Shown here piece by piece: positions 23,319-41,235 of a stretch of DNA of 43,097 nucleotides. Numbering within the stretch: the stretch's first letter is position 1; the number at the start of each line of letters is the position of its first letter. The stretch comes from Candidatus Mediterraneibacter intestinipullorum (GTDB taxonomy: Bacteria; Bacillota; Clostridia; Lachnospirales; Lachnospiraceae): the NCBI GenBank assembly GCA_019118665.1, contig DWYM01000008.1, forward strand, positions 1 to 43,097, in the 5' to 3' direction. The position numbers and the translations under genes are program-made. Under the pieces are notes generated by a model. The model saw only the letters and a program-made list of their open reading frames with translations. It was not told the DNA's origin and did no database searches.

Positions 23319-23516
23319 ATGAGCGAAAATGAAAAGACTCAGAAGAAGGGCTGGTTCAAAGGACTTCAGGCAGAGTTTAAGAAGATTATTTGGCCAGACA
23401 AAAAAACACTTGCGAAGCAGACTACGGCAGTTGTTGTTGTGTCCGTAGTGCTCGGTGCAGTAATCGCGGTGATCGATGCGATCCTGAAATATGGGATTGA
23501 CTTATTGGTAAGATAG
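23319..23516 (+). CDS. secE: Preprotein translocase subunit SecE
   Basis: The 65-residue product has the short single-helix form of SecE: an amphipathic region (FKGLQAEFKKIIWPDKKTLA) containing the conserved WP step, then one transmembrane helix (residues about 36-56). SecE clamps SecY in the Sec translocon. ATG 23319 follows GGGAGGA. It is located between rpmG and nusG, as is usual. Confidence 0.96.
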   Translation: MSENEKTQKKGWFKGLQAEFKKIIWPDKKTLAKQTTAVVVVSVVLGAVIAVIDAILKYGIDLLVR

Positions 23517-23541: not shown

Positions 23542-24060
23542 ATGTCAGAGGCAAAATGGTATGTAGTTCATACTTATTCAGGGTATGAAAACAAAGTAAA
23601 AGCGAACATTGACAAGACGATCGAGAACCGCCATCTGGAAGACCAGATCCTTGAGGTCCGCGTTCCCATGGAGGAAGTCACGGAGCTCCGGAATGGTGTG
23701 CAGAAGGCAGTGCAGCGCAAAATGTTCCCGGGATACGTCATGATCCACATGATCATGAATGACGATACATGGTATGTCGTGAGAAATACACGCGGAGTTA
23801 CAGGTTTCGTCGGACCGGGATCCAAGCCGGTGCCTCTCGAAGAGAGCGAGATGGCGAATATGGGCATCAAGCGCGACAATGTGGTCGTCAACTTTGGCGT
23901 GGGCGACACGGTCGTTGTTTTAAGCGGCGCGTGGGAGGGTACTGTGGGTGTAGTGCAGAGCATGAACGACCAGAAAAAGAGCCTGTCCATCAATGTTGAG
24001 CTGTTTGGCCGCGAGACTCCGGTTGAACTTGGTTTTTCAGAAGTGAAAAAAATGGATTAA
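23542..24060 (+). CDS. nusG: Transcription termination/antitermination protein NusG
   Basis: The 172-residue product has the NGN domain (KWYVVHTYSGYENKVKANI; FPGYVMIHMIMNDDTWYVVR; RGVTGFVGPG) and a C-terminal KOW domain (VGDTVVVLSGAWEGTVGVVQ). It binds RNA polymerase and affects pausing and transcription-translation coupling. The start has AAAGGTGAT upstream. It is followed by the first of two matching leader hairpins before rplK. Confidence 0.97.
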   Translation: MSEAKWYVVHTYSGYENKVKANIDKTIENRHLEDQILEVRVPMEEVTELRNGVQKAVQRKMFPGYVMIHMIMNDDTWYVVRNTRGVTGFVGPGSKPVPLEESEMANMGIKRDNVVVNFGVGDTVVVLSGAWEGTVGVVQSMNDQKKSLSINVELFGRETPVELGFSEVKKMD

Positions 24061-24065
24061 AGATG

Positions 24066-24104
24066 AGTGGGAGGGGCGACGCCCCGCCAATACCACAAGG
24101 AGGT
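24066..24104 (+). promoter_or_regulatory. Leader hairpin before rplK (copy 1 of a repeated RNA element)
   Basis: GTGG (24067-24070) pairs with CCAC (24093-24096) across an asymmetric loop (GA / GCCAATA), capped by GGGGC-GAC-GCCCC (24073-24085). The AAGGAGGT ribosome-binding site follows directly. The identical outer part recurs before rplA with a different but still paired apical stem. Such a site next to rplK-rplA is a plausible target for autoregulation by L1; the ligand is inferred. Confidence 0.6.
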
Positions 24105-24112
24105 AATTGAAA

Positions 24113-24538
24113 ATGGCAAAAAAAGTAGAAGGTTATATCAAATTACAGATTCCTGCCGGCAAGGCAACTCCGGCGCCGCTGGTCGGACCTGCGCTTGGAC
24201 AGCACGGTGTAAATATCGTTGAATTTACAAAGCAGTTCAATGCAAGGACAGCAGACCAGGGCGACCTGATCATTCCGGTTGTCATTACAGTATACAATGA
24301 CAGAAGCTTCAGTTTCATCACAAAGACGCCGCCGGCAGCAGTTCTTATCAAAAAAGCATGCAAGATCCAGTCCGGTTCCGGCGTGCCGAACAAGAACAAG
24401 GTCGCAACGATCACAAAGGCTCAGCTTCAGGAGATTGCAGAGATGAAGATGCCGGACCTGAACGCGGCATCCGTAGAGGCTGCTATGAGCATGGTGGCAG
24501 GAACATGCCGTTCCATGGGTGTCGTTGTAGAGGAATAG
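24113..24538 (+). CDS. rplK: 50S ribosomal protein L11
   Basis: The 141-residue product is a complete L11: [39 protein letters not shown], and the rRNA-binding C-terminal domain ([35 protein letters not shown]). L11 forms the GTPase-associated stalk base. ATG 24113 is preferred to a TTG at 24107 on family grounds and AAGGAGG spacing. rplA follows after 79 bases that hold a second leader hairpin. Confidence 0.97.
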
Positions 24539-24570
24539 AGCACTTGGCGATTTATTGAAGCAGGGAAACA

Positions 24571-24607
24571 AGTGGGAGGGACAAATCCCGCCAATACCAC
24601 AAGGAGG
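24571..24607 (+). promoter_or_regulatory. Leader hairpin before rplA (copy 2 of the repeated RNA element)
   Basis: GTGG (24572-24575) pairs with CCAC (24597-24600) with the same GA / GCCAATA internal loop as copy 1, capped by GGGA-CAAA-TCCC (24578-24589). AAGGAGGT follows at once. The apical stem differs from copy 1 but keeps pairing, which argues for a conserved RNA structure rather than a chance duplication. Confidence 0.6.
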
Positions 24608-24617
24608 TTATTGTAAA

Positions 24618-25310
24618 ATGAAACGAGGAAAGAAATATATCGAAGCTGCAAAACTGATTGAGAGAGGAAATCTCTACGATAAGGAAGAAGCAGTTGCATT
24701 AGTAAAAAAAGCAGCAGTGGCAAAGTTTGACGAGACCATCGAGGCTCACATCAGAACAGGATGTGACGGACGTCACGCAGATCAGCAGATCCGCGGCGCG
24801 GTCGTACTTCCGCACGGAACAGGAAAGAAAGTCCGCATCCTTGTATTTGCGAAGGACGCAAAGGCAGAGGAAGCGAAAGCAGCAGGCGCTGATTTCGTGG
24901 GAGGAGACGACCTGATTCCGAAGATCCAGAACGAAGGATGGCTCGACTTTGACGTAGTTGTTGCAACACCGGATATGATGGGCGTTGTAGGACGTCTCGG
25001 ACGTGTTCTCGGACCGAAGGGGCTTATGCCGAACCCGAAGGCGGGAACAGTTACAATGGACGTGTCGAAAGCCATCAACGATATCAAAGCCGGTAAGATC
25101 GAGTACAGACTCGACAAGACAAACATTATCCATGTGCCGATCGGTAAGGCTTCCTTTACCGAGGAGCAGTTAGCGGACAACTTCCAGACGCTTATTGACG
25201 CGATCAACAAGGCAAGACCGGCAGCAGTTAAGGGCCAGTACCTGAAGAGCATTACGCTCACATCCACAATGGGACCGGGCGTAAAGGTCAACCCCTTGAA
25301 ACTTGCATAA
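24618..25310 (+). CDS. rplA: 50S ribosomal protein L1
   Basis: The 230-residue product is a full-length L1: [60 protein letters not shown] and the closing [17 protein letters not shown]1 forms the mobile E-site stalk and in many bacteria represses its own mRNA. ATG 24618 follows AAGGAGGT. Unusually, rplJ and rplL do not follow; a terminator comes next and the rest of the ribosomal cluster resumes at 41.2 kb. Confidence 0.97.
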
Positions 25311-25395
25311 TGATCAATAAATAAAAGAAATATTTGACAGTCTTTGGAGCAGGTGATACACATTGCTTGTATAAAAGGATTGTCACTGGTAAAGC

Positions 25396-25451
25396 AGGCT
25401 ATACCGATTATGCGCATTTATTTAGAATGTGGCAGAGGTATAGCCTTTTTT
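25396..25451 (+). terminator. Intrinsic terminator after rplA
   Basis: AGGCTATACC (25396-25405) and GGTATAGCCT (25437-25446) form a perfect ten-base stem with a smaller hairpin in the loop, followed by TTTTTT (25446-25451). It lies in the 299-base gap between rplA and fruK, which otherwise holds the fruK promoter. A short open frame at 25334-25540 spans it and is not credible. Confidence 0.8.
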
Positions 25452-25511
25452 GCGCTGTTATGCCGGAAAGGAAGCTAAAAATCAAATTTGTGCAATATAA
25501 ACCAAATTCAG

Positions 25512-25565
25512 TCACAAAATATGTGAATTATTTTGATTGAATTTGAATGAATATGACTGTATAAT
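25512..25565 (+). promoter_or_regulatory. fru operon promoter with upstream palindrome
   Basis: TTGAAT (25537-25542), 17-bp spacer and TATAAT (25560-25565) precede fruK. A perfect palindrome TCACA-AAATA-TGTGA (25512-25526) lies just upstream, and TTGAAT/TGAATGAAT direct repeats cover the -35. These are candidate sites for the DeoR-type regulator encoded at the end of the operon; the binding is inferred. Confidence 0.6.
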
Positions 25566-25609
25566 GAAACCATCAAAGGAGTTGGAGGAAATGAAATGGA
25601 GGAATTGCA

Positions 25610-26515
25610 ATGATCTACACAGTCACTTTTAATCCGTCCTTAGATTACATCGTCTCTGTCGACGATTTTCAGCTGGGACTTACGAACCGTACCAGATCCG
25701 AGCTGCTCCTTCCGGGAGGAAAAGGGGTCAATGTGTCAGTCATCCTGAAGAACCTGGGGATAGAGAGTACTGCTCTTGGCTTTGTCGCAGGATTCACAGG
25801 GGCGGAAATCACCCGAAAAGTGGAGGAGATGGGGGTACGCTCTGACTTTATTCCGGTGAAAGAGGGAATCTCCCGGATCAATGTTAAGCTGAAAAGCATT
25901 GATGGGACAGAGATCAACGGCATGGGACCGGACATTGGGAGAGACAAGGTGGCAGAACTGATGGAGAAGCTGAAGGTTCTGGGGCAGGGCGATGTGATCG
26001 TCCTGGCGGGAAGCATCCCGACGGCAATGCCGGACGATATTTACAGCTGGATTCTGGAGCAGTTGGAGGGCAGAGGCGTTACCTCCGTGGTGGACGCCAC
26101 AGGGGACCTGCTCCTGAATGTGCTGAAATATCACCCCTTCCTCATCAAACCGAACAGCCATGAGCTGGGAGATATTTTCGGGGTCAAGTTAAAGGCCAGA
26201 GAGGATGTAGTCCCCTACGCAAAGAAGCTCCAGGAAATGGGCGCCAGAAATGTGCTTGTATCAATGGCAGGAGAAGGAGCGGTGCTGGCGGCGGAGGATG
26301 GCAGTGTGTACGATGCGCCTGCTCCGAAAGGAGTTCTTGTAAATGCTGTGGGCTCCGGCGATTCCATGGTAGCAGGGTTTACTGCGGGCTGGATGGAAAA
26401 GCAGGATTACAGACATGCGTTTTACATGGGCGTTGCATCGGGAAGCGCAAGCGCTTTTTCGGAGTATCTGGCTACAAGAGAGGAAATCATGGATCTGTAT
26501 GAGCGGATCATATAA
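25610..26515 (+). CDS. fruK: 1-phosphofructokinase
   Basis: The 301-residue product is a PfkB/ribokinase-fold kinase: MIYTVTFNPSLDYIVSVDDF, LPGGKGVNVSVILKNLGIES near the N-terminus, and NAVGSGDSMVAGFTAGW with the catalytic Asp251 near the end. It phosphorylates fructose-1-phosphate, made by the PTS transporter next door, to fructose-1,6-bisphosphate. The ATG has GGAGG upstream. It is 38 bases before fruA. Confidence 0.95.
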   Translation: MIYTVTFNPSLDYIVSVDDFQLGLTNRTRSELLLPGGKGVNVSVILKNLGIESTALGFVAGFTGAEITRKVEEMGVRSDFIPVKEGISRINVKLKSIDGTEINGMGPDIGRDKVAELMEKLKVLGQGDVIVLAGSIPTAMPDDIYSWILEQLEGRGVTSVVDATGDLLLNVLKYHPFLIKPNSHELGDIFGVKLKAREDVVPYAKKLQEMGARNVLVSMAGEGAVLAAEDGSVYDAPAPKGVLVNAVGSGDSMVAGFTAGWMEKQDYRHAFYMGVASGSASAFSEYLATREEIMDLYERII

Positions 26516-26553
26516 AATGAATGGAAAATATCTTCGGAAAGGGAGGTCATAAA

Positions 26554-28467
26554 ATGAGGATCACAGATTTGCTGGATAAGAGGAGCATTTCCCTTATAGG
26601 AACTCCTCAGACAAAGAACGAGGCGCTGGACCAGATCATTGACTTGATGGTACAGAGCGGAAAAATAAGTGACAGGGAGGCGTACAGGCAGCAGGTGTAC
26701 GAGCGTGAACAGGAGAGCACGACCGGAATCGGGGAGGGGATCGCCATTCCTCACGGCAAGTGTGACGCAGTGACAAAGCCAGGTCTGGCAGCCATGGTCA
26801 TAAAGGAGGGCGTGGAGTTTGACGCGTTGGATGGAAAACCAGTCACGCTCATGTTCCTGATCGCGGCTCCCAACACAGAAGACAACGTGCATCTGGATGT
26901 TTTGAGTAAATTGTCTGTGCTCATGATGGATGAGAAGTTTGCAGACAATCTAAGAAATGCCGGGAGTGTGGATGAATTTCTCCAGATCATCGACAGGGCG
27001 GACGAGGAGGAGCGAGGCATTGACGAGAGGCTGGCAAACGGAGACCAGATCGGAGCGGGAGCATTTCACATACTTGCAGTTACTTCCTGTCCCACTGGTA
27101 TCGCACACACTTACATGGCGGCAGAGGGGATCGAGAAAGCGGCAAAGGCAAAGGGCTGTTCTGTAAAAGTGGAGACACGAGGATCCGGCGGGGCAAAGAA
27201 CGTGCTGACACCAGAAGAAATCCGTAACGCAGACTGCATCATCGTTGCAGCAGACGCGCAAGTCCACATGGAGCGCTTCAACGGAAAGAAAGTGATCCAG
27301 TGCCAGGTATCTGACGGCATCAGCAAGGCAGACCAGTTGGTGGAGCGGGCAATGTCAGGAAACGCTCCCATCTATCATGGGACCGGAGAGAGCGAGGCAT
27401 CCGCGTCAGGCGGCGCAAAATCCGGCGGGGCTGGACACAAGATTTATACACAGCTCATGAACGGCGTGTCACATATGCTCCCCTTTGTAGTGGGCGGAGG
27501 CATCCTGATCGCCATTGCATTTCTCATCGACGGTCTTTCAGTGGATCTGAACGCACTGCCTGCTGACCAGAGGGGAGACTTTGGAACGCTCACATCGCTG
27601 GCAGCGCTTTTCAAAGGCATCGGCGATACGGCGTTTGGCTTCATGCTTCCGGTGCTGGCAGGCTTTATCGCCATGGCGATCGGGGACAGACCGGCGCTGG
27701 CGGTAGGATTTGTGGGAGGCATGATGGCATCCGGCGGGAAATCCGGTTTCCTCGGAGCGCTTGTGGCAGGCTTTGCTGCAGGATATCTTATCCTGGGTCT
27801 CAGAAAACTGTGCGGGAAGCTGCCTCAGGCTATCGAGAAGATCGCGCCGGTGCTGCTCTATCCGGTATTCGGAATCCTCATTATGGGTCTGCTGATGAAT
27901 TTCATTGTGGAGCCGGTCATGGGAGGCATTAACACCGCGCTCAACACCGGACTTTCCGGCATGGGAGAGACGAGCAAGATCCTGGTGGGGCTTATCCTTG
28001 GGGGCATGATGGCGATCGACATGGGAGGTCCGTTCAACAAAGCTGCCTATGTGTCTGGCACAGCGTCCATTGCGGCTGGAAATTATGAAATCATGGCAGC
28101 AGTCATGATCGGCGGAATGACGCCACCCTGCGCCATTGCCCTTGCAACATTGCTGTTCAAGAACAAATTTACTAAGGAACAGAGAGAGACAGGGCCGACA
28201 AACTTTATCATGGGACTTGCATTTATCACAGAAGGCGCTATTCCATTCGCGGCGTCCGATCCGCTCCGTGTGCTTCCGTCCTGTATCGCGGGATCAGCGG
28301 TAGCAGGCGCGTTGTCTATGGCGTTCGGATGCACGCTGATGGCTCCCCACGGCGGAATCTTCGTATTCCCTGTAGTGGGAAATCCGCCGATGTATCTGGC
28401 AGCGTTGGTTGTGGGGACGCTGATTTCCACAGTTCTTCTCGGAATGCTCAAAAAGAAGGTGGAATAA
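26554..28467 (+). CDS. fruA: PTS fructose transporter subunit IIABC
   Basis: The 637-residue product fuses all three enzyme II domains. EIIA is residues about 1-150, with the phosphorylated His67 in GIAIPHGKCD. EIIB is about 170-270, with phosphorylated Cys179 in SCPTGIAHTYMAAEGIE. EIIC is about 295-637, with ten or so membrane segments. It imports fructose and phosphorylates it at C1. ATG 26554 is chosen for AAAGGGAGG ten bases upstream; an in-frame ATG at 26521 lacks one. It lies between fruK and the regulator. Confidence 0.95.
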   Translation: MRITDLLDKRSISLIGTPQTKNEALDQIIDLMVQSGKISDREAYRQQVYEREQESTTGIGEGIAIPHGKCDAVTKPGLAAMVIKEGVEFDALDGKPVTLMFLIAAPNTEDNVHLDVLSKLSVLMMDEKFADNLRNAGSVDEFLQIIDRADEEERGIDERLANGDQIGAGAFHILAVTSCPTGIAHTYMAAEGIEKAAKAKGCSVKVETRGSGGAKNVLTPEEIRNADCIIVAADAQVHMERFNGKKVIQCQVSDGISKADQLVERAMSGNAPIYHGTGESEASASGGAKSGGAGHKIYTQLMNGVSHMLPFVVGGGILIAIAFLIDGLSVDLNALPADQRGDFGTLTSLAALFKGIGDTAFGFMLPVLAGFIAMAIGDRPALAVGFVGGMMASGGKSGFLGALVAGFAAGYLILGLRKLCGKLPQAIEKIAPVLLYPVFGILIMGLLMNFIVEPVMGGINTALNTGLSGMGETSKILVGLILGGMMAIDMGGPFNKAAYVSGTASIAAGNYEIMAAVMIGGMTPPCAIALATLLFKNKFTKEQRETGPTNFIMGLAFITEGAIPFAASDPLRVLPSCIAGSAVAGALSMAFGCTLMAPHGGIFVFPVVGNPPMYLAALVVGTLISTVLLGMLKKKVE

Positions 28468-28518
28468 TCTGAAAAACAGGCGTACAATAGAGAAAATACG
28501 ATTATGGGAGAGATGGGG

Positions 28519-29262
28519 ATGTTATCAGAACAAAGATATGCGAGGATACTCGGTCTTCTGGAGGAGAAGAAGAGCATTACAGTGGCAGAGGTCACAGAAC
28601 TCCTTGGTATTTCCGAATCAACTGCACGCCGGGATATCACGGCTCTGGACCGGGCCGGGAGACTGACAAAGGTATTTGGAGGAGCCGTGACGAGCAGCGG
28701 CTCCTTTGTTACACAGGAGCCCACGGTCGCTCAGAAAGTGGAAGTGCATAAGGCGGAAAAGATACAGATTGCCCGGCGGGCGGCAACCATGGTCGAGGAT
28801 ACGGATTTTGTTTATCTGGATGCAGGGACGACCACCGGGTATATGATTGAATTTCTTGGACGGACAAAAGCGTCTTTTGTCACCAACGCGGTGGCGCACG
28901 CACAGAAACTGGCTGCTCAGGGGAGCCGGGTCTTTCTTGTGGGCGGGGAACTGAAGAGCTCCACCGAGGCAGTCATCGGCGCTCAGGCAATGGAAATGCT
29001 GGAACGGTATCATTTTACAAAAGGATTCTTCGGGACAAACGGAGTCACAAAAAAGGAGGGCTTTACCACCCCTGACGCGGGGGAAGCGCAGGTCAAACGG
29101 ACAGCCATGCGTCAGTGCTGGAAGTGCTATGTCCTGGCTGACAGCGCCAAATTCGGGTATGTCAGCGCCGTCACATTCGCCTCCTTTGAGTCCGGGGTGA
29201 TACTGACCGAGAAGATCGTGGAGGGATATCAGGAAGGGGACAGGCTGATCCGGTGCGAGTAG
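28519..29262 (+). CDS. fruR: DeoR/GlpR family transcriptional regulator of the fructose operon
   Basis: The 247-residue product has an N-terminal DeoR winged helix (LSEQRYARILGLLEEKKSIT, TELLGISESTARRDITALD) and a C-terminal sugar-phosphate-sensing DeoRC domain (DAGTTTGYMIEFL, FGTNGVTKKEGFTTPD). Such regulators normally repress fru genes until fructose-1-phosphate or a related ligand is present. ATG 28519 is preferred because GGGAGAG lies just before it; ATGs at 28504 and 28513 are in frame. The gene is last in the operon, whereas many Firmicutes place fruR first. Confidence 0.88.
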   Translation: MLSEQRYARILGLLEEKKSITVAEVTELLGISESTARRDITALDRAGRLTKVFGGAVTSSGSFVTQEPTVAQKVEVHKAEKIQIARRAATMVEDTDFVYLDAGTTTGYMIEFLGRTKASFVTNAVAHAQKLAAQGSRVFLVGGELKSSTEAVIGAQAMEMLERYHFTKGFFGTNGVTKKEGFTTPDAGEAQVKRTAMRQCWKCYVLADSAKFGYVSAVTFASFESGVILTEKIVEGYQEGDRLIRCE

Positions 29263-29680
29263 GCCCAGAGGGAGCCTTCCAGAGGAAGCTGTACTGACCG
29301 TTGGCATAGTAAAGCGAGGCAGGATTGTTTTTCGCAACCCCCAAAGGGCTGGGCGAAAAATAGTCCTGCCTCTTCACATTTCGGGACTGCTATTCTTTTC
29401 CTTTGACAAGGCCTGCACGTTTTCGTGTAAACAGCGATTATGATAAGCGCCAGGTCAAACAGACCCTGTCTAACCCAAAGCAACGACCTGTTTGAGGAAT
29501 AGAATCCATCTGTTCTTTGGATATATGCTGCCAGAGCCCCAATTGTCGCGGTGAAAGACATCGTTCCTGTTATATACATTTATCATTTTTGCTCACTCTA
29601 TTCAATAACTGTTTTCAACAGTAGAATACCCTAGTCCAGATAAAATGCCACGCTCTTTCGTTCAACAGGAGCCTCCGTTA
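29263..29680. other. Non-coding interval downstream of the fructose operon
   Basis: About 420 bases without a supportable gene. It contains a long interrupted palindrome (29316-29372, listed separately) and a TCAAACAG/CTGTTTGA inverted repeat (29455-29462/29488-29495). A minus-strand open frame with a hydrophobic stretch (29229-29579) crosses the palindrome and the fruR end, has no clear ribosome-binding site, and may be a remnant of a lost gene. Sequence composition shifts toward AT from here to about 30.7 kb. Confidence 0.5.
29316..29372. repeat. Long interrupted palindrome
   Basis: GAGGCAGGA (29316-29324) pairs with TCCTGCCTC (29364-29372). After a 3/3 internal loop, TTTTTCGC (29328-29335) pairs with GCGAAAAA (29353-29360), and CCC-N3-GGG lies in the loop. 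There is no U-tract on either side, so it is a poor terminator. It looks more like a dispersed repeat or mobile-element end, or an RNA-processing hairpin. Confidence 0.7.
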
Positions 29681-29709
29681 TTTACAAAAATTACTGGTAC
29701 TAATATAAT
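29681..29709 (+). promoter_or_regulatory. Promoter of the XRE-type regulator
   Basis: TTTACA (29681-29686), a 17-bp spacer and TATAAT (29704-29709) form a near-consensus promoter about 100 bases before the ATG. The leader contains a GGTTGC/GCAACC inverted repeat (about 29742-29770), a possible autoregulatory site. Confidence 0.65.
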
Positions 29710-29811
29710 GAAAATAAGGAAATGTCGTGATCGTAATTGATGGTTGCCTATTAGTTGGCAGCACGCAACCTGCATTATAAGTTAAAATCAGAGTGAAAGG
29801 AGGTGCTGGAT

Positions 29812-30312
29812 ATGGCACTGAGCGAGAATATTAATGCACGGCGTACACAGCTCAACATGTCCCAAGAGTATGTTGCCGATCAATTAGGCATTAGCCGACA
29901 GGCCGTTGCAAAATGGGAAGCAGGAAAAAGCAGACCAACAGCGGTCAATTTAGCGGAGTTGGCTTCTCTATTTGAAATGAGCATTTCAGAACTTGTTGAT
30001 CCTCAAAAGTATGCTGAGGGTCAACAAGCGCAAGAGCAGAAATATAGGGATAACCATAAAAATTCAAAAATGCTTCTGGCAGCCGGATTTGTCTTACTTT
30101 TTATCACATCAAAGGATATGGGTAAAAAGCATAAACTCGAACCATTGCAGATTATCATTGGACTTGCTATGATTTTTTCCATTTTCTTTTTGCCGCGTAC
30201 CATTCCTTTGGAACAAGTTGGAGTCAAGTATCTTCTTGCTGATATTGTTACTGCCATCTGCGGAATTATATTAAGTTTAAAATATTGGCGGCATATCTGG
30301 AGAGTCAAATAA
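29812..30312 (+). CDS. XRE family helix-turn-helix regulator with C-terminal membrane domain
   Basis: The 166-residue product begins with a Cro/C1-type HTH (residues about 3-60; MALSENINARRTQLNMSQEY, ISRQAVAKWEAGKSRPT). After a charged linker it has about three membrane helices (residues about 87-102, 116-132 and 140-156). Such membrane-tethered XRE proteins are common in Firmicutes and often act as local regulators or stress sensors; the target is unknown. ATG 29812 has AAAGGAGGT seven bases before it. The codons are visibly more AT-rich than those of neighbouring genes, hinting at separate ancestry. Confidence 0.85.
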   Translation: MALSENINARRTQLNMSQEYVADQLGISRQAVAKWEAGKSRPTAVNLAELASLFEMSISELVDPQKYAEGQQAQEQKYRDNHKNSKMLLAAGFVLLFITSKDMGKKHKLEPLQIIIGLAMIFSIFFLPRTIPLEQVGVKYLLADIVTAICGIILSLKYWRHIWRVK

Positions 30313-30377
30313 GGAAAATGACCAGCGTGCCAATATCTTTATAAATAACTAAATAGCTCGCCGCCTGCCAGCGGCAG

Positions 30378-30414
30378 TGCCAAACAGGAGATCTTTGAAA
30401 GGTTTCCTGTTTTT
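30378..30414 (+). terminator. Intrinsic terminator after the XRE-type gene
   Basis: AAACAGGA (30382-30389) pairs with TCCTGTTT (30405-30412), running into TTTTTC. The remaining 30415-30681 holds only the next gene's promoter region. Confidence 0.65.
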
Positions 30415-30572
30415 CTTATGGCATTTATTAAGGAGTTTTAGACTATAACTGCTGCAATACATGATATGCGCATGCATAATCCCCACAGACTGTCTTGAAG
30501 GAGTGTATTCGGCAGGTGGTAACATATGTTTGACGAACTAACAGATTCTGCTTAAAAAATGTTGTTAAGTTA

Positions 30573-30612
30573 TTGACAAAGGAGTGACTGACAAATTAAA
30601 ATAATCTATAAT
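30573..30612 (+). promoter_or_regulatory. Promoter region of the giant surface protein gene
   Basis: TTGACA (30573-30578) with TAAAAT (30597-30602) at 18 bp is one option. A second -10, TATAAT (30607-30612), lies 17 bp after GTGACT (30584-30589). The two overlap, so one or both may be used. Confidence 0.55.
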
Positions 30613-30681
30613 AGACAAAAATTGGCAACTTTAATTAGACATGATCTTTAAATTATCAGTAATGTTAAGGAGAGGGAAAAA

Positions 30682-33600
30682 ATGAAGATGAAAAATGCAT
30701 GTGCTCTTATTATGGCAGCAGCAATGGTAGTGTCAGGAGGCAGCCCGATGCTGCTTTTTGCAGAGACTTCTCAGTCTGCGGATACATCATTGTCAGATCA
30801 AAGCGCGGTCAAAGCGGCATGGGATCCTTTGCCAAGAACAGTCAATCTCGTCCAGGAGGACGGCTATACGGCAGGCATAAAGGACCCGGCTGTTCCCACA
30901 TCATCGACTATGAGCTGGGCGGCAAATGGAGACGCAAGCTGGCTGTATTTTGGAAATTATTACTACAATGACGGTCAAACAAAGCAGCCGCTTAAATGGA
31001 GGGTGCTTGACAGCTCATCCCCCAGTGACAACGCGACGGAGGACAGCTTCCTGCTGATGACAGATCAGATTGTGGACCGTGTATTGTATAATGAGAACAT
31101 CAATACATATCAGGTGCGCTGGCCTGACAGCAACCTGCGAAAATGGCTGAACTCTGAGCAGTACAGCGGTTCTTATACAGAGGGCGGTTTCCTTAATAAT
31201 GCCTTTGATGAGGTGGAACAGAGCGCGGTTAAGACTACTACCTGGCCTGACACCGGAAACTTCATGCATCTTGACACACCAGCGGTGAATGAGAAGGTGT
31301 TTCTCCTTGCTGCAAGAGAGATGGACAAAGCGGAGTATGGATTCTATCACTATGGCATATCCGGCGTTGTGCAGTCCACTACACGCATGACGTCCACACC
31401 TTATGCAAGAGCGCAGGGCGTTGCTGTCAACTCGATCGGATTCTCGAATTATTATTTGCGCTCGGTAACGGATCCGGGGTGGGGAGAGGGCTACTATATC
31501 CCAGGCATGGTAGGCGTGGACGGTTCGTATTTTTCCGAGACGGCGGGGATGCTGCAGTCCGGTATCCAGATGTTTAATGACTTCGATATCATGGACATAT
31601 CCATTGCCGGGGTGGCGCCTGTGGTCCACATTGGATGGGATTCTGTCCTGTTTGTTTCAGAACACAGTTCGGAAAAGCCTGGGATATTCCAACCCACGGC
31701 AGCATCAGACCGTAAAGACTGGGATGTGACTCTGCTGAATGATGACAACAAGCTGAACGCAAAGATCACGAATACGGCAAGCTCGGTGAGCGTCTATGCC
31801 GGAGACCAATTGCAGGCAGAAGTCAGCGGCGTTGATACAGAGCGAGGGTATGACCGCATTTCCGCTATGCTGGTAAATTCCTCAGGGTCAGTTGTGGCTT
31901 ATGGTGCGATCAGTAGTACAGCACAGGATGGAGAATACCAGGTTCCACTGCCGGAGGATCTTAAAGAAGGCTCCTACACATTGAAGATATTCGCGGAGAA
32001 GGTGGGTTACGGAACGGAACAGGCGGGCAGCGACTATGCCAGCCATCCGGTGGATATTCCTGTCAAGATCATTCCTGAGGAAGACGGACCGGCGCTCTCG
32101 GCATCACATCTGGGAAGCTATGCTTCTGTTTACGGCGATGATATGAGTGAGTTTGCATCCACGCTTGTCATTGAAAATGTTGGAAATGTAGATGCAGAGA
32201 TTGAAAGTGTCAAAGTTACGCCGGAAGATAGATTTGAAGTTTCTGCGACCGGGGATAATACTGTCACAGCCGGAGGGACCAACACCTCGTGGAAGATAAG
32301 CCCGAAAGCTGGCATCAGCCGCGGCGTCAATGATGCTGTGGTCACGATTTCTTACCGGAGAGGCATGGAGCTTATAGAAACAACTGCCGGGATGAGGATG
32401 ACGGTCAGCCCGAAGCCGGTGACTGTGACCGTGGCTGCAAAACCGGGTGTGGAGTGGGAGCAAGATGAGACAGAGCCATTGAAGCTGCACATGTGGGCGA
32501 CCCTTATCTGGGAAGAGGAGGAAGGATACTACAACAGCTGGGACACGAACTGGGCAAAACTGAAAGACGATGACCCGACCAATGACGATGAGTTTGATGA
32601 AAACTGGGACGGTCCCATGCAGGCTACATATGAGGGCATTGACGGAGAGACAAAGTACGCTACGGTGCTTTATAATTACAGCACCTATTTTGAGTATCCC
32701 ACAGGGCTGCATCCGAGACGGTATCAGTTGAACGTGGAGGTCAGTGACCCGAACTATATCCTGACCGGGCTGGAAGGTTTTACGACCCTGGACTTTAACT
32801 GGGGAGAGATTGACGGTGTACCTCAGCTTCCAACCACTCCGCCTCCGGCAGTCCAGGATTTCTGGATCAATTATAACGAGGAGACAGTCACGTTGCTGGT
32901 GTCAGATGCTGGAGTGAAGGTACATCTTGCTAATACAAAAGAGGATTTTTCTGGAACGATGATCTACAATGGGGATTCTATCACGGAATATATCAATGAC
33001 GCCGGAGAGGAGCGCACTGTTCTCTATCTCCAGACCACGGCAGATGCAGCGGGCGTTGCATCCGCCTCAACTCCGGTAAAGATACCGCTCAGGAGAGAAG
33101 CGCCGGAGAAGATCGGCTCTGAGAAGACAAGCGGCCCCGGGCGCAGTGACGGTGCGCTCACAGGTCTGACCACTGATATGGAATATCGCAAGCAAGGTGA
33201 GACAGCGTGGACGTCTGTCATATATCCGGGGAAAGTGACCGGACTTTCTGCGGGTACATATGAGGTGCGTTATAAAGCACAGGTGGATGATCAGGCACGC
33301 TGGGACAAAGAGAATGAGAAACTTTTCAACAATGAATTTGCTTCTGCCTCGGCGGAGGTGGTCATAGATGATGACGAGGCGTCAGGGGCGATCCTGAATA
33401 TTGAAGTTGAAGATCCTTCGGGAGATGGCCTGGCCGTGCTTGGATATGCTGATTATGGGGCTGATTATGCGGAGCTGTTGGATACTGTGGAAGTCACGGT
33501 AACAAACAGTGGTACGGACACAGGTACGATTTCTGATATCAGTTCTACAGGCGGGAATTTTGGGTGGCTCAACGCTGAAAATGCAGTCAAAGAGATTGCT

Positions 33601-36600
33601 CCTGGAGTGAGCGAGACTTATACGGTTGGATTGCTTCCTGATGCTGGAGCTGGTCAGCACAATGAATATGTTGTGGTAAAATATGACGAGACACAGAGTG
33701 TTACGGATAATGAAGTTCTGCTATCGGTTAATATTAGAAAAGCAAGTCAGGCAAAACCAGCCGCGCCGGCTAAAGATACAGTTACATCAACGAGCATTAC
33801 CCTGAAACCCGGGGACGAAAGCGGTAAGGGCACTGCCAATTATGGTCTGGTAAAAGATGGGACGACCACATGGCAAGAGAGCCCTACATTTACAGGATTA
33901 AACCCGGATACAGAGTACAGCTTTAAGATCAAGTTCTCCGGGGATACGAACTACAATGCTTCCCCGGAATCAGACACAGTGACTATCCGTACTGCCGAGG
34001 CAGAACAGTACGAAATGGCAGTCAGTAGTATGGAGCTGGCACCAGTTGTCTACGGTGAAAGCCCGGTGGCAACAGCGATTTCTTTGAAAAATACCGGAGC
34101 AAGCCAGCTGACAGGTGTGACCATCACTGCGGTAAGCGGAGAGACAGATTCGTTTGTCATCACGGAGGGGAACACTACGATCAGAGTCTCCTCAACAGAC
34201 GAATCATGGAAAATCGCTCCAAAAGAGAGCTTAGGAGCTGGGAATCACGAAGTGACGCTTCGGGCTGATTCTGCTGAGACGGAACCGCAGGAGTTTACCG
34301 TTACTCTTACAGTAGAAAAAGCAGAGCAGACAGCGCCCGATGCGCCGAGTGCGGAAACTGTCTCTGCCCGGTCCATAACCCTTGAGGCTCAGACATCTTC
34401 TCAATCTGGCGTGAATGCACAGTATCGTATGCGCAAAGCAGGTATGGAAAAGTGGGGAGACTGGCAGTCAGAGGTTGAGTTTGCGGATCTTACGCCAAAC
34501 GTGAAGTACGAGTTTGAGGCGTACTACCCGGAGACGGAAAATTATAAGATTTCTGAGGGAAGCGACATTGCTGAGGTCACAACGAAAAAAGCAGCGCTTA
34601 GTGTTGATGGGAATTTGAGCGCGTCAGGAGAATATGGGATATCCTTGAGCGAGCTTAAAATTTCATCAGAGAATGTTACTGTGACGGATGACCAACAGAA
34701 AGCTGTGAATGGTTCGTGGGCATGGGAGAAAGCCCTCTCCGGCGATGAGCGCCCTGTTGTAAATGGAACTAAGAATTATACGGCAGTATTTACTCCTGCC
34801 GAAAATGCAGATCAGTATGAAGCAGTGACACAGGATGTACTGCCAGTGATAACAGCAAAAAGTGTAGTGGTCACTGTAAAAGGTGATGCTGCGCAGGATA
34901 TATCCAATATTACAGGGCTGCAGGCCGAGTATGAGGATGTGGATGGACAGGTTCAGGAAGCAGTAGTCCTGTACAATGGCAAGACAGATTTGCCGAAAAC
35001 ACCGGGTTCTTATACGATAAGCGTTCAGATCTCTGATACAAATTATGCGGTTCACAGCTTTACTGGACCGGAAACTTTTGAAATCAATGACAGCGCTCTG
35101 AATGAGGCAAAGAAAAATGCACAGGCTGTGATCCAGGACCTTGAGTATCTGAGCACAGAGAAAAAACAGGAATATTTAACCCAAATCGCAGATGCAGTGA
35201 CGGTATCTGACGTGGAAGATATTGTTGAGTCAGCTGAACAGGAAAATGCTGCAGAAGAACTGTCGCATAAAAAACAAGAAGCGAAAAAGGAAATTGAAGG
35301 TCTGGTGAACCTGTCAGAAACACAGAAGACGCAGTATAAAACAAGTGTAGATAATGCGCAGACAGTCCAGGCGGTGGAAGAAGCCTTGACTGCTGCAAAA
35401 GCAGCGGACGCAGCTGCCCTGACAGCAAAGAAAGAAGCTGCAAATGCAGAGATTGAGGAGCTGACAAATCTTACAGAAGAGCACAAGGCAGAATATAAGA
35501 CTCGGGTGGAAGAAGCTGAGACGATCGCAGCCGTAGATGAAATACTTGCAGAAGCGAAAGCGGCAGACCAGGCTGCGGGAGACGCGGCGGCTCTTGAAGC
35601 GAAGAAGGAAGAGGCCCAAAAAGCGATCGATGAGCTGCAAAACCTGACCGATGAGCAGAAGACAGAGTATAAGTCTCAGGTAGAAGAAGCAAATGATATC
35701 GAGGAAGTTGAAACTACGCTGGAGGCAGCCAAAGCAGCGGACGCAGCTGCCCTGACAGCGAAGAAAGAAGCTGCAAATGCAGAGATTGAGGCGCTGACAA
35801 ATCTTACAGAAGAGCAGAGACAGGAATATAAGTCTCAAGTGGAAAAAGCAGAGACAATCGCAGCCATAGACGTAATACTTGCAGAAGCGAAAGCGGCAGA
35901 CCAGGCTGCGGGAGACGCGGCGGCTCTTGAGGCGGAGAGGGAAGAGGCCAAAAAAGCGATCGATGGACTGCAAAACCTGACTGATCTGCAAAAGGCTGAT
36001 TATAAGGCTCAGGTAGAAGCGGCAGACAGCATCAGCGCTGTTCAGGAGATTGTTGTGGCAGCGCAGATGGCAGACGGGGCTGCAGCGCTTCGGGCGAAGA
36101 AAGAATCTGCAAAAACAGCTATCGCCGGGTTACCGAACCTGACCGAGATACAGAAATCCGAATACGAGTCCCAAGTGGAAGCGGCACAGAGCATCAGTGA
36201 AGTCCAGGAAGTGCTCCAGACAGCACAGGCGGCTGATACAGCAGCACTTGAAACAAGGAGAACAGAGGTTGCTGCAACGATCAGTAATTTGACATATCTG
36301 ACGGATGAACAAAAGCAGGCATACGCAGACCGAGTTTCTTCGGCTGCCACAATAAAGGAGATTGACACAATCCTTTCGGAAGCGCAAGAGGAAAATATCA
36401 CGGCCGCCGAAACTCTGGAACAGGCGAAGGAGTCAGCGAACGCGGCGCTCATGGGCCTGAAATATCTGAGCGATGAGAGGATGCTATTCTACCAGACCAA
36501 GATCAGCGAGGCTCAGGATGTAGATGTGGTCAGCGAGATCCTGGCAGAGGCAAATGCAGAAAATGCTCGTCTTCAGCTAGAAGAACAGCTCAGACAGAAG

Positions 36601-37371
36601 AAAGAAACTGCAAAAAATGAACTTGGCACACTTATATACCTGGATGCAGCGGCACAGCAGAACTATAAAGATCAGATTGATGCTGCTCTTACAATGGAGG
36701 CTGTGGATACATTGCTGGCAGCAGCACGGCAAGAAAATGCATCTCTTGAAGAAGCAGCAAACCTGAACGAGGCAAAAGTGTCTGCGAAGGCGAGGATCAA
36801 TGCGCTTGAATATCTGAGTGAGCAGACAAAACAGGCGTATACGGCACAGATAGATGCGGCAGCTTCAGAGGCAGAGCTTGCCATTATACTTGATGCTGCG
36901 ATCGCGGAAAATTCTGCGGCGCAGACAGAGGCAGTGCTCACAGCTGCAAAAGAACAGGCAAATGTTGCGATCCATGCTCTGGCTGGACTTTCCGCACAGG
37001 AAAAAAGCCAGTTTGTCAGCCAGATCCGAGCGGCCCAAACTGTGGAAGAAGTTCAGACGATCCTGGCTGCTGCTGAACAAAAAAGCCAGGAGAATCTTGC
37101 CTCACCAGGTTCGGGAACAGGTACGGATACGAACCCTGGCGCAGGCTCCAATACCGGGACTGGAGGAAATACGAACACAGGAGGAAATGCACAAAATGTG
37201 CAGGATGTACAGACTCCGGTGAGGACTTCTGGAAAAGGAGACTCCGGTGTGCCTCGCACAGGTGAGGCAGAAGGTCGATTGGCTGTTCTGATGTGGGTGG
37301 GCTGTATTGCCATGGCTGTGGCTGGTGCGGCAGGCGCTGTCGGAAAGAGATTCAGAAGACAGTCTCACTGA
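30682..37371 (+). CDS. Giant secreted multidomain surface protein with GA-like repeats and sorting signal
   Basis: The 2229-residue protein starts with a signal peptide (about 1-27). Residues about 86-325 form a DUF6273-like domain (LKWRVLDSS, LRKWLNSEQY). Next come beta-sandwich modules: several CARDB/Ig-like (about 345-575 and 905-1025), two fibronectin-III-like units (LNPDTEYSFKIKF; LTPNVKYEFEAYY) and MBG-like strands. From about 1470 to 2140 there are about twelve repeats of 53-58 residues resembling GA (albumin-binding-type) three-helix modules, with a consensus like LTEEQKxxYKxQVExAxTI. A Gly/Thr/Asn-rich linker leads to VPRTG (2190-2194), a hydrophobic helix and a basic end, a sortase-type signal. 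An adhesin or host-protein binder is inferred. The ATG follows AAGGAGAGG. Confidence 0.87.
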   Translation: MKMKNACALIMAAAMVVSGGSPMLLFAETSQSADTSLSDQSAVKAAWDPLPRTVNLVQEDGYTAGIKDPAVPTSSTMSWAANGDASWLYFGNYYYNDGQTKQPLKWRVLDSSSPSDNATEDSFLLMTDQIVDRVLYNENINTYQVRWPDSNLRKWLNSEQYSGSYTEGGFLNNAFDEVEQSAVKTTTWPDTGNFMHLDTPAVNEKVFLLAAREMDKAEYGFYHYGISGVVQSTTRMTSTPYARAQGVAVNSIGFSNYYLRSVTDPGWGEGYYIPGMVGVDGSYFSETAGMLQSGIQMFNDFDIMDISIAGVAPVVHIGWDSVLFVSEHSSEKPGIFQPTAASDRKDWDVTLLNDDNKLNAKITNTASSVSVYAGDQLQAEVSGVDTERGYDRISAMLVNSSGSVVAYGAISSTAQDGEYQVPLPEDLKEGSYTLKIFAEKVGYGTEQAGSDYASHPVDIPVKIIPEEDGPALSASHLGSYASVYGDDMSEFASTLVIENVGNVDAEIESVKVTPEDRFEVSATGDNTVTAGGTNTSWKISPKAGISRGVNDAVVTISYRRGMELIETTAGMRMTVSPKPVTVTVAAKPGVEWEQDETEPLKLHMWATLIWEEEEGYYNSWDTNWAKLKDDDPTNDDEFDENWDGPMQATYEGIDGETKYATVLYNYSTYFEYPTGLHPRRYQLNVEVSDPNYILTGLEGFTTLDFNWGEIDGVPQLPTTPPPAVQDFWINYNEETVTLLVSDAGVKVHLANTKEDFSGTMIYNGDSITEYINDAGEERTVLYLQTTADAAGVASASTPVKIPLRREAPEKIGSEKTSGPGRSDGALTGLTTDMEYRKQGETAWTSVIYPGKVTGLSAGTYEVRYKAQVDDQARWDKENEKLFNNEFASASAEVVIDDDEASGAILNIEVEDPSGDGLAVLGYADYGADYAELLDTVEVTVTNSGTDTGTISDISSTGGNFGWLNAENAVKEIAPGVSETYTVGLLPDAGAGQHNEYVVVKYDETQSVTDNEVLLSVNIRKASQAKPAAPAKDTVTSTSITLKPGDESGKGTANYGLVKDGTTTWQESPTFTGLNPDTEYSFKIKFSGDTNYNASPESDTVTIRTAEAEQYEMAVSSMELAPVVYGESPVATAISLKNTGASQLTGVTITAVSGETDSFVITEGNTTIRVSSTDESWKIAPKESLGAGNHEVTLRADSAETEPQEFTVTLTVEKAEQTAPDAPSAETVSARSITLEAQTSSQSGVNAQYRMRKAGMEKWGDWQSEVEFADLTPNVKYEFEAYYPETENYKISEGSDIAEVTTKKAALSVDGNLSASGEYGISLSELKISSENVTVTDDQQKAVNGSWAWEKALSGDERPVVNGTKNYTAVFTPAENADQYEAVTQDVLPVITAKSVVVTVKGDAAQDISNITGLQAEYEDVDGQVQEAVVLYNGKTDLPKTPGSYTISVQISDTNYAVHSFTGPETFEINDSALNEAKKNAQAVIQDLEYLSTEKKQEYLTQIADAVTVSDVEDIVESAEQENAAEELSHKKQEAKKEIEGLVNLSETQKTQYKTSVDNAQTVQAVEEALTAAKAADAAALTAKKEAANAEIEELTNLTEEHKAEYKTRVEEAETIAAVDEILAEAKAADQAAGDAAALEAKKEEAQKAIDELQNLTDEQKTEYKSQVEEANDIEEVETTLEAAKAADAAALTAKKEAANAEIEALTNLTEEQRQEYKSQVEKAETIAAIDVILAEAKAADQAAGDAAALEAEREEAKKAIDGLQNLTDLQKADYKAQVEAADSISAVQEIVVAAQMADGAAALRAKKESAKTAIAGLPNLTEIQKSEYESQVEAAQSISEVQEVLQTAQAADTAALETRRTEVAATISNLTYLTDEQKQAYADRVSSAATIKEIDTILSEAQEENITAAETLEQAKESANAALMGLKYLSDERMLFYQTKISEAQDVDVVSEILAEANAENARLQLEEQLRQKKETAKNELGTLIYLDAAAQQNYKDQIDAALTMEAVDTLLAAARQENASLEEAANLNEAKVSAKARINALEYLSEQTKQAYTAQIDAAASEAELAIILDAAIAENSAAQTEAVLTAAKEQANVAIHALAGLSAQEKSQFVSQIRAAQTVEEVQTILAAAEQKSQENLASPGSGTGTDTNPGAGSNTGTGGNTNTGGNAQNVQDVQTPVRTSGKGDSGVPRTGEAEGRLAVLMWVGCIAMAVAGAAGAVGKRFRRQSH
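35401..36066 (+). repeat. 333-bp tandem duplication inside the giant surface gene
   Basis: Bases from 35401 recur from 35734 with high identity (both begin GCAGCGGACGCAGCTGCCCT). The period is 333 bp (111 codons), that is, two GA-like repeats copied as a pair. The frame is kept, so copy-number change would alter protein length by 111 residues. Confidence 0.85.
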
Positions 37372-37448
37372 TTTTAAAAATACATTTGTGAAGCACTAGC
37401 CTATGGAGAATGGGGCTACAAATCAGTAATATATAAGTCAGATATTAC

Positions 37449-37499
37449 GGCGTCAATGCGCAGAGCATATTGCTTTTTGTGCATTGATGCCTGTTTTTT
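37449..37499 (+). terminator. Intrinsic terminator after the giant surface gene
   Basis: GGCGTCAATGCGCA (37449-37462) pairs with TGTGCATTGATGCC (37478-37491), 14 base pairs with two G-U, with a small AGCA/TGCT hairpin in the loop, then TGTTTTTT. The 297-base gap to the next gene otherwise contains its promoter. Confidence 0.82.
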
Positions 37500-37607
37500 G
37501 TTGAGGGATATGTGTTTTTGCACAAATAAGCAGATCATATTTATTATAAGTTAAACAAAATTATCAAAAGATGTCAAAAAAGTGAAAGACAATGTATGAT
37601 TATCAAA

Positions 37608-37636
37608 TTTACGGGCCGGACAAACTTTGATACGAT
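37608..37636 (+). promoter_or_regulatory. Possible promoter of the chimeric surface gene
   Basis: TTTACG (37608-37613), a 17-bp spacer and extended -10 TGA-TACGAT (37628-37636) are each four of six matches. Plausible but weak. Confidence 0.4.
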
Positions 37637-37668
37637 TTTATCATCAAAAATGAAAAGGAGCTCGTTTT

Positions 37669-39906
37669 ATGAAGAAAAAACTTGTAGCGCTCATGTTGAC
37701 TATGGGTATGGTGCTGGGACTGGCAGCCTGTGGAGGAGGCGGATCCTCTTCGGACCAGAGCGGAGGGAATGCCTCTTCAGGAAGCGAGGATGGCGGTGAC
37801 CTGCCTGTCCTGAAAGTGGCGGTCATGCCTTTCCTGAACTGCCTGCCCGTGCAGTATATGATCGAGAATGGGCTGGATGAGGAGAATGGTTTCAAGATCG
37901 AGACCGTTTACTTTGCCAACGGTACTGCAATGAACGAGGCGCTGGCAGCTCCGGTATCGGGCTGGTATATGGGAGATATGGGGCAAGTGCTGGCCGCGGA
38001 GGAGAGATCGGGCACAACAGATGATTCGTCAGGTTCTACCAGTACAGTCTCAGAGACGATCACGACAAAAATCCAGGCGGAGGATGCAGTTCTCAGTCTG
38101 CCCCTGGGAGACAATGTAGGAACTGATTTTGTAAAAAAAACAGAGGCAAACTCTGATGGCGGCGCACACATCAAGACGTCCGCTATAGGCGCTGCGGTGA
38201 CTCTGACGTTTGAGGGCACAGGTATCCGTTTCTATACGAAGCTTGGAAACCAGGCGGGACAACTGTCCGTGCAGATTGATGACGGCGAGGCGGAGACGAT
38301 TGATGAGTACACAAGCGGAGCCGCGCAGTTTAAGAGCAAGCTGTACGAGAATCTGGAACTGAGTGAGACAAATGAGTCTCATACGATTGTTCTTACAACA
38401 CTGGACGGCGACAGAACGAACTTTAATTTCGATTACTTTGAGGTGATCAGCTTAGACGCTGAGGTTCCTGTGGAAGAGCCGGATGTGCCGGAAACACCGG
38501 ACACAACAATAGAGGTGACGACGAACATTCAGGCGGAAAACACCGAGTATGTGACGCTGGATCCCGGGATTGGGTCTGACATGGCAAACAGCTTTGTAGT
38601 AGAGAATGAAAGTAAATCCAGCGGCGGCGCTCATATCAAGACATCAAAGATCGGCGCCACGGTAACGCTGACGTTTGAAGGTACAGGTGTGCGCTTCTTC
38701 ACTAAAAAGGGAAATGGTGCAGGGCTGCTTTCTGTTACACTTGACGGACAGGAAAAGGGTACTATTGATGGATACATAAACAGCAATACGGCTCAGTTTC
38801 AGGAGATGCTGTTTGAGGCGCTGAATCTCAGTGATGTAAATGAAGAGCATACTCTCGTTCTTACGACAATGAGTGGAGCTCGGTCTAATTTCAATTTCGA
38901 CTATTTCGAGGTCATTCTGGATGATGTCAATAACATTTCCTTCGCTCCGGGAGATAAGGAACGCAGCGGTATCCGTGTGGAAGCTTACGGCGGCGGTACA
39001 TATGAGCATATTTATATCAAAGACTGTAATATTTTCGATGTCCGCGGCTACAATGGACAGGACTCCATATGGGATGTAGTGCCGGAGGGAGGCGGTACGA
39101 CTTTCTATGGTTCAAGGACGACGCATCGTACAGGCGGTATCAATATTGTAAGCCATACGATGAGAGACCTGACAAATGCCGCGAGCTCTTCAACTGCCGG
39201 CGATGTTATTGACGAACAACCTACGATTTTTAACGATGTGCTCATCGAAGGCAACACAGTTGAAAACTGTTATGCAAACGGTATCACCACAACAAATGTC
39301 CGAGGAGCGCTGGATGAAAGGGAAAATCGGCATACGAAAGTAGTTATCAGGAATAATGTGATACGCAATGTACAGCGCGCGGGAATTATTCCTCTGTACA
39401 CATCAGGATGCCTTGTAGAGTACAATCTGGTCGATACATTCCAGCAGACAACACAAGGCTATGGATGCGGGATCTGGTGCGACCGCGCGAATGATATGAT
39501 ATTCCAGTATAACGAAGTGTGCAACGGCAAGAACACTATGGATGGAATGGCATTCAATCTTGACGACATGACGGAGAATGGTATCATCCAGTATAACTAT
39601 TCCCATAATAATGTGGGCGGCGGGGTCATGCTCCATATAAGGACGAACTCGTACAACAGAAATAATACAGTGCGTTATAATCTCAGTGTGAATGACACAG
39701 CTAACTATGCTGCCATCAGGCGGTTATCGTGTGTGTCGGCGAGGGTGTCGATACAAAGATACAGAACGCAAGAGTATATAACAACACATTTATCAACAAT
39801 AATGCAGTGCATCCTGTATACAAGGGAGACCAAATCCTGTTCGAGAATAATATTTTTTACTTCCCGAATACAGGAATGGAATCCAGAAATGACGCTTATG
39901 ATATAG
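37669..39906 (+). pseudogene. Chimeric surface protein, 5' part up to a frameshift (lipoprotein head, two CBM-like modules, beta-helix)
   Basis: The frame encodes 745 residues, but only about 684 look genuine. It starts with a lipoprotein signal (lipobox L18-A-A-C21) and a Gly/Ser linker. Residues about 45-95 (LPVLKVAVMPFLNCLPVQYM) resemble the start of an NMT1/THI5-type ABC solute-binding protein, which is then cut short. Two similar modules follow (about 133-262 and 285-416), each ending NFNFDYFEVI, and look like galactose-binding-fold carbohydrate-binding domains. Residues about 425-684 form a right-handed parallel beta-helix (VLIEGNTVENCYANGITT, KVVIRNNVIRNV). After about R684 the frame turns to basic, serine-rich nonsense while the beta-helix continues in another frame. 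Likely a broken gene, or a sequencing error. Confidence 0.75.
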
Positions 39907-41210
39907 GAGTGAATACTTCTTTCAAAAATAATGTGTTCGCAGGCTCCCATTCTTCCAGCGAACCGCAAAATGCAGGTGAAAACAGCGGAAATGTATACGT
40001 TGACATATCCCCGCTGGCGGGAACCTTCTATGGCTCTGAGACTCTGGAAGAGGCAAAGGAGATGGCAAAGCTTGTCCATGGTTCCGTAGCGCTTAAGATG
40101 GGGGATACGCCAATCCTTACTGCGGGAAGTGTGGAGGAGGACTTCTATGGAAATCCGGCGATAGCTTCGGACGGAACGGTTAACGCAGGTATCTACAATG
40201 GAGAATCTGTGGACCTGATCCCAGATGAGGGAGAGCCCGGAATGAGACCGATGCCGGGAAGTGACGAAGAGCCTTCGGAAGACGAATATAACGTGGAGTA
40301 TGTTGAAGCCGAGAGCGATGTTGTCCAAAAGAGTGACGGATACAGAGTAGTTTCGGGTGATCAGTCCCAGGGATATAACGATACCCATGTTCATTTCCAG
40401 GATACCACGGCATATGTTGAGTACACATTCACAGGAAAAGCAATATCTGTATATACCAAGACAGGGGCAGGGGCCGGAGTGGCTGCTATCATCCTTGACG
40501 GAGAGCAGGTCGGGGTAGATGATCAGTATACTTCCACGCAGCAGTTTAATAAACGCGCTTATACAGTTGTATTTGAGGAAGAGGGAGAACATACGATCCG
40601 GCTGGAAAATACCGGTGTCAAGAATCCCTCGTCCACAGGATACGGATTTAATATCGACTGCTTTAAAGTATTCCGTGAGAAGGACAGCAACAACAACCTT
40701 ACCTCCCTCAGCTATTCCCTGAATGGGGAAACATCGGTATCTGTTCCGGGATTTTCGCCGGAAACACTGTCCTATGCCGTGACATTGCCAACAGGTACGA
40801 CAGGCACGATCCAGCTTTCAGGAACCGCGGAGAGCAGCGCTGCAAGCACAGTGTCCGATGAGGCTGTCATTTCAGGGGGGACTGCTACAGCCACATTGAC
40901 GGTCACTGCGTTAAACGGCGATACAAGAGTGTACACTGTGAATTTTGCCGTGGAGCAGACGGAACAGACTCCGGGAACAGGCACGCAGCAGCCGGGAACC
41001 CAGACGCCTCTTGGCGCCCAGACGCCATCAGGCACGGTGAACCAGCCGGGCACGCAGACCTCTGCGGGCAATGTTCAGTCTGGCGCTGCGCAGGGGATGA
41101 CTCCGGCGACCGGCGATGAGACGAATGTGCCGGCCGCGTTTTTCGCCATGGCAGGAGCTGCGGCGGTACTGGCAGTTATCTATAAGAGAAGACTGACGAA
41201 AAATTCTTGA
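39729..41210 (+). pseudogene. Chimeric surface protein, 3' part after the frameshift (beta-helix end, CBM-like, cadherin-like domain, anchor)
   Basis: This frame continues the protein of the previous entry: beta-helix coils (ARVYNNTFINNNAVHPVY, ILFENNIFYFPNT), then a third carbohydrate-binding-like module (about 40288-40675; TAYVEYTFTGKAISVYTKTG). Next are a cadherin-like beta-sandwich (about 40690-40955; LTSLSYSLNGETSVSVPGF), a Pro/Gly/Thr/Gln-rich linker, and TPATGD with a hydrophobic helix and KRRLTKNS, a variant wall-sorting signal. It has no signal peptide or ribosome-binding site, so it would not be made and exported alone. Restoring one missing base near 39720 joins both parts into about 1180 residues. 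Its stop (TGA 41208-41210) lies in the -35 of the rplJ promoter. Confidence 0.75.
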
Positions 41211-41235
41211 CATAATAAAAAAACTGTGCTATTTT
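41207..41235 (+). promoter_or_regulatory. Promoter of rplJ-rplL
   Basis: TTGACA (41207-41212), a 17-bp spacer and extended -10 TGC-TATTTT (41227-41235). The perfect -35 contains the stop codon of the upstream surface gene. Transcription would begin near 41242, at the start of the L10 leader. Confidence 0.72.

Follow-up and report, generated by a model that had tools for sequence, protein, structure and literature searches.

In the window, by which we mean the whole analysed stretch of 43,097 nucleotides, the genes of ribosomal proteins L11 (rplK) and L1 (rplA) are each preceded by a copy of the same conserved hairpin, and each copy is very probably, judging from sequence, an L1 operator adjoining the Shine-Dalgarno sequence of its own cistron. 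The coordinates are presented in Table 1. NCBIfam models confirmed the frames starting at 23319, 23542, 24113 and 24618 as SecE, NusG, L11 and L1, respectively, and 79 bases separate the rplK stop from the rplA start. According to the L1 protein, the closest named relative of the assembly is Candidatus Mediterraneibacter colneyensis (98% identity), and the titles of the relatives indicate that the family is Lachnospiraceae.

Table 1 Features of the rplK-rplA region of the window
Feature	Position	Strand	Basis
L1-operator-like hairpin, copy K, 5' of rplK (L11)	24067..24096	+	sequence; R1 32.2 bits
AAGGAGGT, Shine-Dalgarno of rplK, abuts hairpin	24097..24104	+	sequence
rplK, ribosomal protein L11 (ATG at 24113)	24113..24538	+	NCBIfam TIGR01632, 1.2e-59, over cut-off
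L1-operator-like hairpin, copy A, 5' of rplA (L1)	24572..24600	+	sequence; R1 36.2 bits
AAGGAGGT, Shine-Dalgarno of rplA, abuts hairpin	24601..24608	+	sequence
rplA, ribosomal protein L1, presumed repressor (ATG at 24618)	24618..25310	+	NCBIfam TIGR01169, 6.6e-103, over cut-off

Both copies follow a common plan, in which GUGG, GA, an apical stem, GCCAAUA and CCAC are followed at once by AAGGAGGU and the start of rplK or rplA. Copy K consists of GTGG, GA, GGGGC, GAC, GCCCC, GCCAATA and CCAC, and copy A of GTGG, GA, GGGA, CAAA, TCCC, GCCAATA and CCAC, with AAGGAGGT next in each case. The first-pass annotation had described two copies with an identical GTGG/CCAC outer stem, GA / GCCAATA asymmetric loop and following sequence, one before each cistron and each touching the ribosome-binding site, and direct reading bore this out: these parts show no difference between the copies, and AAGGAGGT abuts both hairpins. 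It was also right that the apical stems differ and yet stay paired (GGGGC/GCCCC versus GGGA/TCCC), with the reservation that this comparison of two copies yields just one compensatory pair, the fourth (G-C in copy K, A-T in copy A), the fifth pair being present in copy K only.

To what extent the hairpins exceed chance was assessed with a covariance model, R1, constructed from 36 sites of relatives, each 28 bases long, with the window sites excluded. Its alignment (A2) contains one length class only; an earlier alignment (A1) was set aside because of gaps placed at the 5' end. When R1 was run against the 2.5-Mb assembly, the window hairpins ranked first and second among the three matches reported at E <= 10, with 36.2 and 32.2 bits compared with 19.1 bits for the third (scoring covered 150 of 1433 first-look candidates). 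Since a model built without the window sites places both of them at the top, a chance origin is unlikely, and the hairpins are real and conserved. The exact pattern GTGGGAG-N8-35-ATACCAC matched the assembly three times, twice at the window hairpins, and had 0 matches when read backwards; the third match (C61:12923) sits in what was judged by eye to be a helix-turn-helix-like frame and was rejected as chance.

The search was extended to a near set of 107 loci (30 from the window's own genome and family plus 80 relatives, minus three duplicates), first in the window and 99 near loci and then in the other seven near loci together with three rRNA loci. In total, 156 R1 matches were kept, 151 of them at E <= 1 from the first search and five from the second, while three rows in rRNA loci, each of ~12.5 bits, were dropped. 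All 156 kept matches in the 107 related loci precede rplK (68) or rplA (88), at 12-39 bases from the start, and GGAG lies 1, 2 or 4 bases after CCAC in 88 of 88 model-found rplA sites. The idea of a conserved RNA that is very probably a protein site thus gained support, and a covariance search, the kind of check that had been proposed, found the sites conserved in relatives. When the whole window was compared with Rfam 15, L10_leader was the sole match, and over the hairpins no family scored at or above its gathering threshold. In a search of 23900-25650, the best Rfam 15 match was RAGATH-33, which overlaps the end of copy A; its 22.7 bits lie below the cut-off of 120.4, and it was taken as chance.

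The L10_leader match (RF00557, 41231-41373, 79.6 bits) is a separate ribosomal-protein leader 5' of rplJ. The genes rplJ and rplL (L10 and L7/L12; NCBIfam) lie ~16 kb downstream of rplA (25310-41231), beyond sugar-phosphotransferase-like genes and large surface-protein-like frames named by eye from their translations; of the 102 loci whose sequence extends for 1400 bases or more beyond rplA, 69 have rplJ within the available stretch. Immediately 3' of rplA, the segment 25335-25451 is strongly folded (z -4.8 for 25308-25470) and forms two hairpins in succession, with a T run after the second. This is probably the operon terminator, though the first hairpin is long for one.

The distribution of the sites is uneven among the relatives. 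Counted as the union of R1 and the stem motif over the 104 near-set loci in which both leaders are readable, both sites are present in 70, the rplA site only in 24, the rplK site only in 7 and neither in 3, so that a site precedes rplK in 77 and rplA in 94. The union replaced two earlier counts of the same 104 loci that missed visible variants: the strict pattern gave 63 with both, 8 with rplK only, 25 with rplA only and 8 with neither, and the model alone gave 61, 6, 26 and 11, respectively. On visual inspection, some sites still escape the union: weak ones 5' of rplA in L087, L098, L105 and L108 and 5' of rplK in L107, as well as half-sites in L094 and in L099. In the class, 98 genomes were searched, 95 of which have L1, and 60 regions spread over families were taken; the 58 loci with both leaders readable comprise 20 with both sites, 26 with rplA only, 4 with rplK only (one of them, L134, doubtful by eye) and 8 with neither, three of which (L131, L137 and L166) show a short-stemmed rplA site by eye. 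The background, 36 motifs in 120,280 bases of reverse strands and rplK coding sequence, corresponds to 0.022 expected per 75-base leader. As a side observation, 12 of the 60 class loci (L119, L122, L124, L125, L126, L134, L144, L145, L146, L152, L155 and L167) carry TGGGAGGTGG within 30 bases 5' of the rplK start, in leaders whose hairpin is missing or uncertain.

The presence of two copies in one genome might also reflect recent duplication or gene conversion, the second copy having no role of its own. Copies from the same genome are indeed slightly more alike than those taken from close relatives (mean 0.413 versus 0.364 in a neighbour-restricted control, with 1 of 5000 draws as high). However, when the rplK sites of 62 genomes were compared with the nearest relative's rplK site and with the genome's own rplA site, 42 were closer to the former and 17 to the latter (3 ties); starting from the rplA sites, the figures were 43, 16 and 3. 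We regard such an origin as very unlikely; each site appears to be ancient and to have been passed down at its own position. Concerted evolution was likewise rejected for the pair, as the excess is weak and inheritance in place dominates.

The secondary structure was examined by folding and by covariation. Minimum-energy folding of four stretches did not return the outer GUGG/CCAC stem and gave z-scores of -0.6 to -1.6. Alignment A3, in which 150 of the 151 matches from the first R1 search (113 distinct rows) were fitted to R1, contains double changes at two of the seven pairs, both apical, in 11 cells; none of 500 shuffles reached 11, and slid versions of the structure reached at most 1. In the same alignment, all 500 shuffles attained the number of further pair types (2), and the covariation score of 0.048 was exceeded by three slid versions (0.064-0.076). 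A stem-free count was also made from the end motifs, which 222 of 329 leaders contain; 187 of these were distinct, and 186 were of sufficient length. Apical pairs 2 and 3 were paired in 171 and 150 of the 186 sites, above the maxima of 165 and 131 in 2000 shuffles, and pairs 1, 4 and 5 were no higher than in shuffles; at pair 1, the 5' letter cannot vary. The outer stem is nearly invariant in A3, an invariance partly built into the search patterns, and because it hardly varies, it gains no support from covariation. An irregular stem-loop with an internal bulge is therefore a candidate form for the element: the apical stem covaries at two pairs, and the outer stem is near-invariant and not given by folding.

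Another important question is which protein would recognise the sites. A search for 23S rRNA in the window's own assembly gave no match, and the comparison was made with four rRNA loci from three related genomes. All four carry GGTGGGAG, and in all four GATAGGTGGGAG is followed, 51 bases on, by GATACCACC (three loci) or GATACCATCC (one locus, the second copy of G035). The mRNA sites are framed by GTGGGAG and ATACCAC, and these ends match the 23S region, which we take to be the L1 stalk, in the three related genomes; in L115, the motif corresponds to approximately rRNA nucleotides 2117-2173 (arithmetic from a 1500-base flank). One of the three dropped R1 rows is a weak match to the rRNA L1 site (L116:2218-2274, minus strand, 12.5 bits, E 1.6), but the other two, elsewhere in the rRNA loci, score the same 12.5 bits, and this match alone is therefore no evidence; the case for mimicry is made by the end motifs that mRNA and rRNA have in common. 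A 2024 review (PMC10931766) states that L1 binds helices H76 to H78 of 23S rRNA and that its mRNA sites closely resemble the 23S site. Given the match of the site ends to the L1-stalk region, L1 is the likely ligand of the predicted sites.

The first-pass annotation had named "L1 (or L11)" and suggested the 23S comparison; of the two, L1 stands as likely, and nothing in the analysis, in which the 23S comparison covered the L1-stalk region, points to L11. A role of L11 in place of L1 could be argued from the copy 5' of the L11 gene and from the 7 of 104 related loci counted with the rplK copy only, but it is barely plausible given the match to the L1-stalk region and the 24 of 104 loci counted with the rplA copy only. 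Nor is it at all probable that the hairpins act without a protein ligand, as translation or mRNA-stability elements near a strong Shine-Dalgarno sequence: their place directly 5' of AAGGAGGT at both genes would suit such elements, whereas the unpaired and outer letters are conserved and match a protein-bound rRNA region, and 16 of the 28 columns are invariant in the 36 model sites (about ten of them fixed by the collecting pattern).

We propose that L1 acts as follows. The mRNA hairpin would copy the ends of the 23S L1-stalk site, a likeness seen at the sequence level in relatives, and L1 in excess of free rRNA would bind the hairpins. Both hairpins run up to the Shine-Dalgarno sequence, and bound L1 would therefore be expected to keep the 30S subunit from binding at either gene. 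With one site per cistron, L1 could repress rplK and rplA also where the distance between them is too great for tight translational coupling. Read from raw sequence, this Lachnospiraceae-like genome very probably uses feedback by L1 acting through a separate operator for each cistron.

The natural one-site and two-site relatives provide material for asking why two operators persist. In the ten loci in which rplK and rplA are separated by 20 bases or fewer and both leaders are readable, there is no rplA site; seven have the rplK site, and three (L144, L155 and L169) have neither. Where an rplA site was counted, no gap is shorter than 49 bases in the near set or 42 in the class set. The near-set loci in which the rplA site was counted as missing have gaps of 4, 13, 17 and 18 bases, together with six of 58-182 bases, in which four weak variants and two half-sites are visible by eye. 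The number of L1 sites may possibly follow operon architecture, although we hold this only tentatively: where rplK and rplA nearly touch, the rplK site might suffice through coupling, and where they lie apart, rplA might need a site to itself and that of rplK might even be lost, so that L1 could repress the two genes to different degrees. The pattern is only suggestive and partly trivial, because a hairpin with its Shine-Dalgarno sequence needs ~45 bases.

The first-pass annotation had known of no standard description of the duplicated layout; the literature, however, contains one. Section 3.1 of the same review (PMC10931766) places the L1 sites 5' of rplK in Proteobacteria and, in Actinobacteria and Cyanobacteria, 5' of rplA. 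It also describes cases with a site at both genes, Firmicutes being its example (citing Fu et al. 2013), and on the basis of Mikhaylina et al. 2021 it adds Thermus thermophilus and Thermotoga maritima to the two-site form. The two-site layout is already known, Firmicutes included. In PMC7247131, devoted to new ribosomal leaders, L1/L11 or rplA/rplK are mentioned once, in the reference list. The site is widespread in the class, yet no Rfam 15 family reached its cut-off at the window hairpins. L10_leader (RF00557) is likewise an autogenous ribosomal-protein leader, located in the same window, but it is a different RNA with a different protein and lies 5' of rplJ. The Proteobacteria L1 operator resembles the window hairpins in its position 5' of rplK and in rRNA mimicry, which is probable for the window, and differs in having one site instead of two, as far as the review's description goes (PMC10931766). 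The two-site operators of Firmicutes, Thermus and Thermotoga share with the window a site 5' of rplK and another 5' of rplA; their irregular bulged stem-loop and mimicry of the 23S L1 site have putative counterparts in the window, and at the level of that description no difference from the window hairpins was found (PMC10931766).
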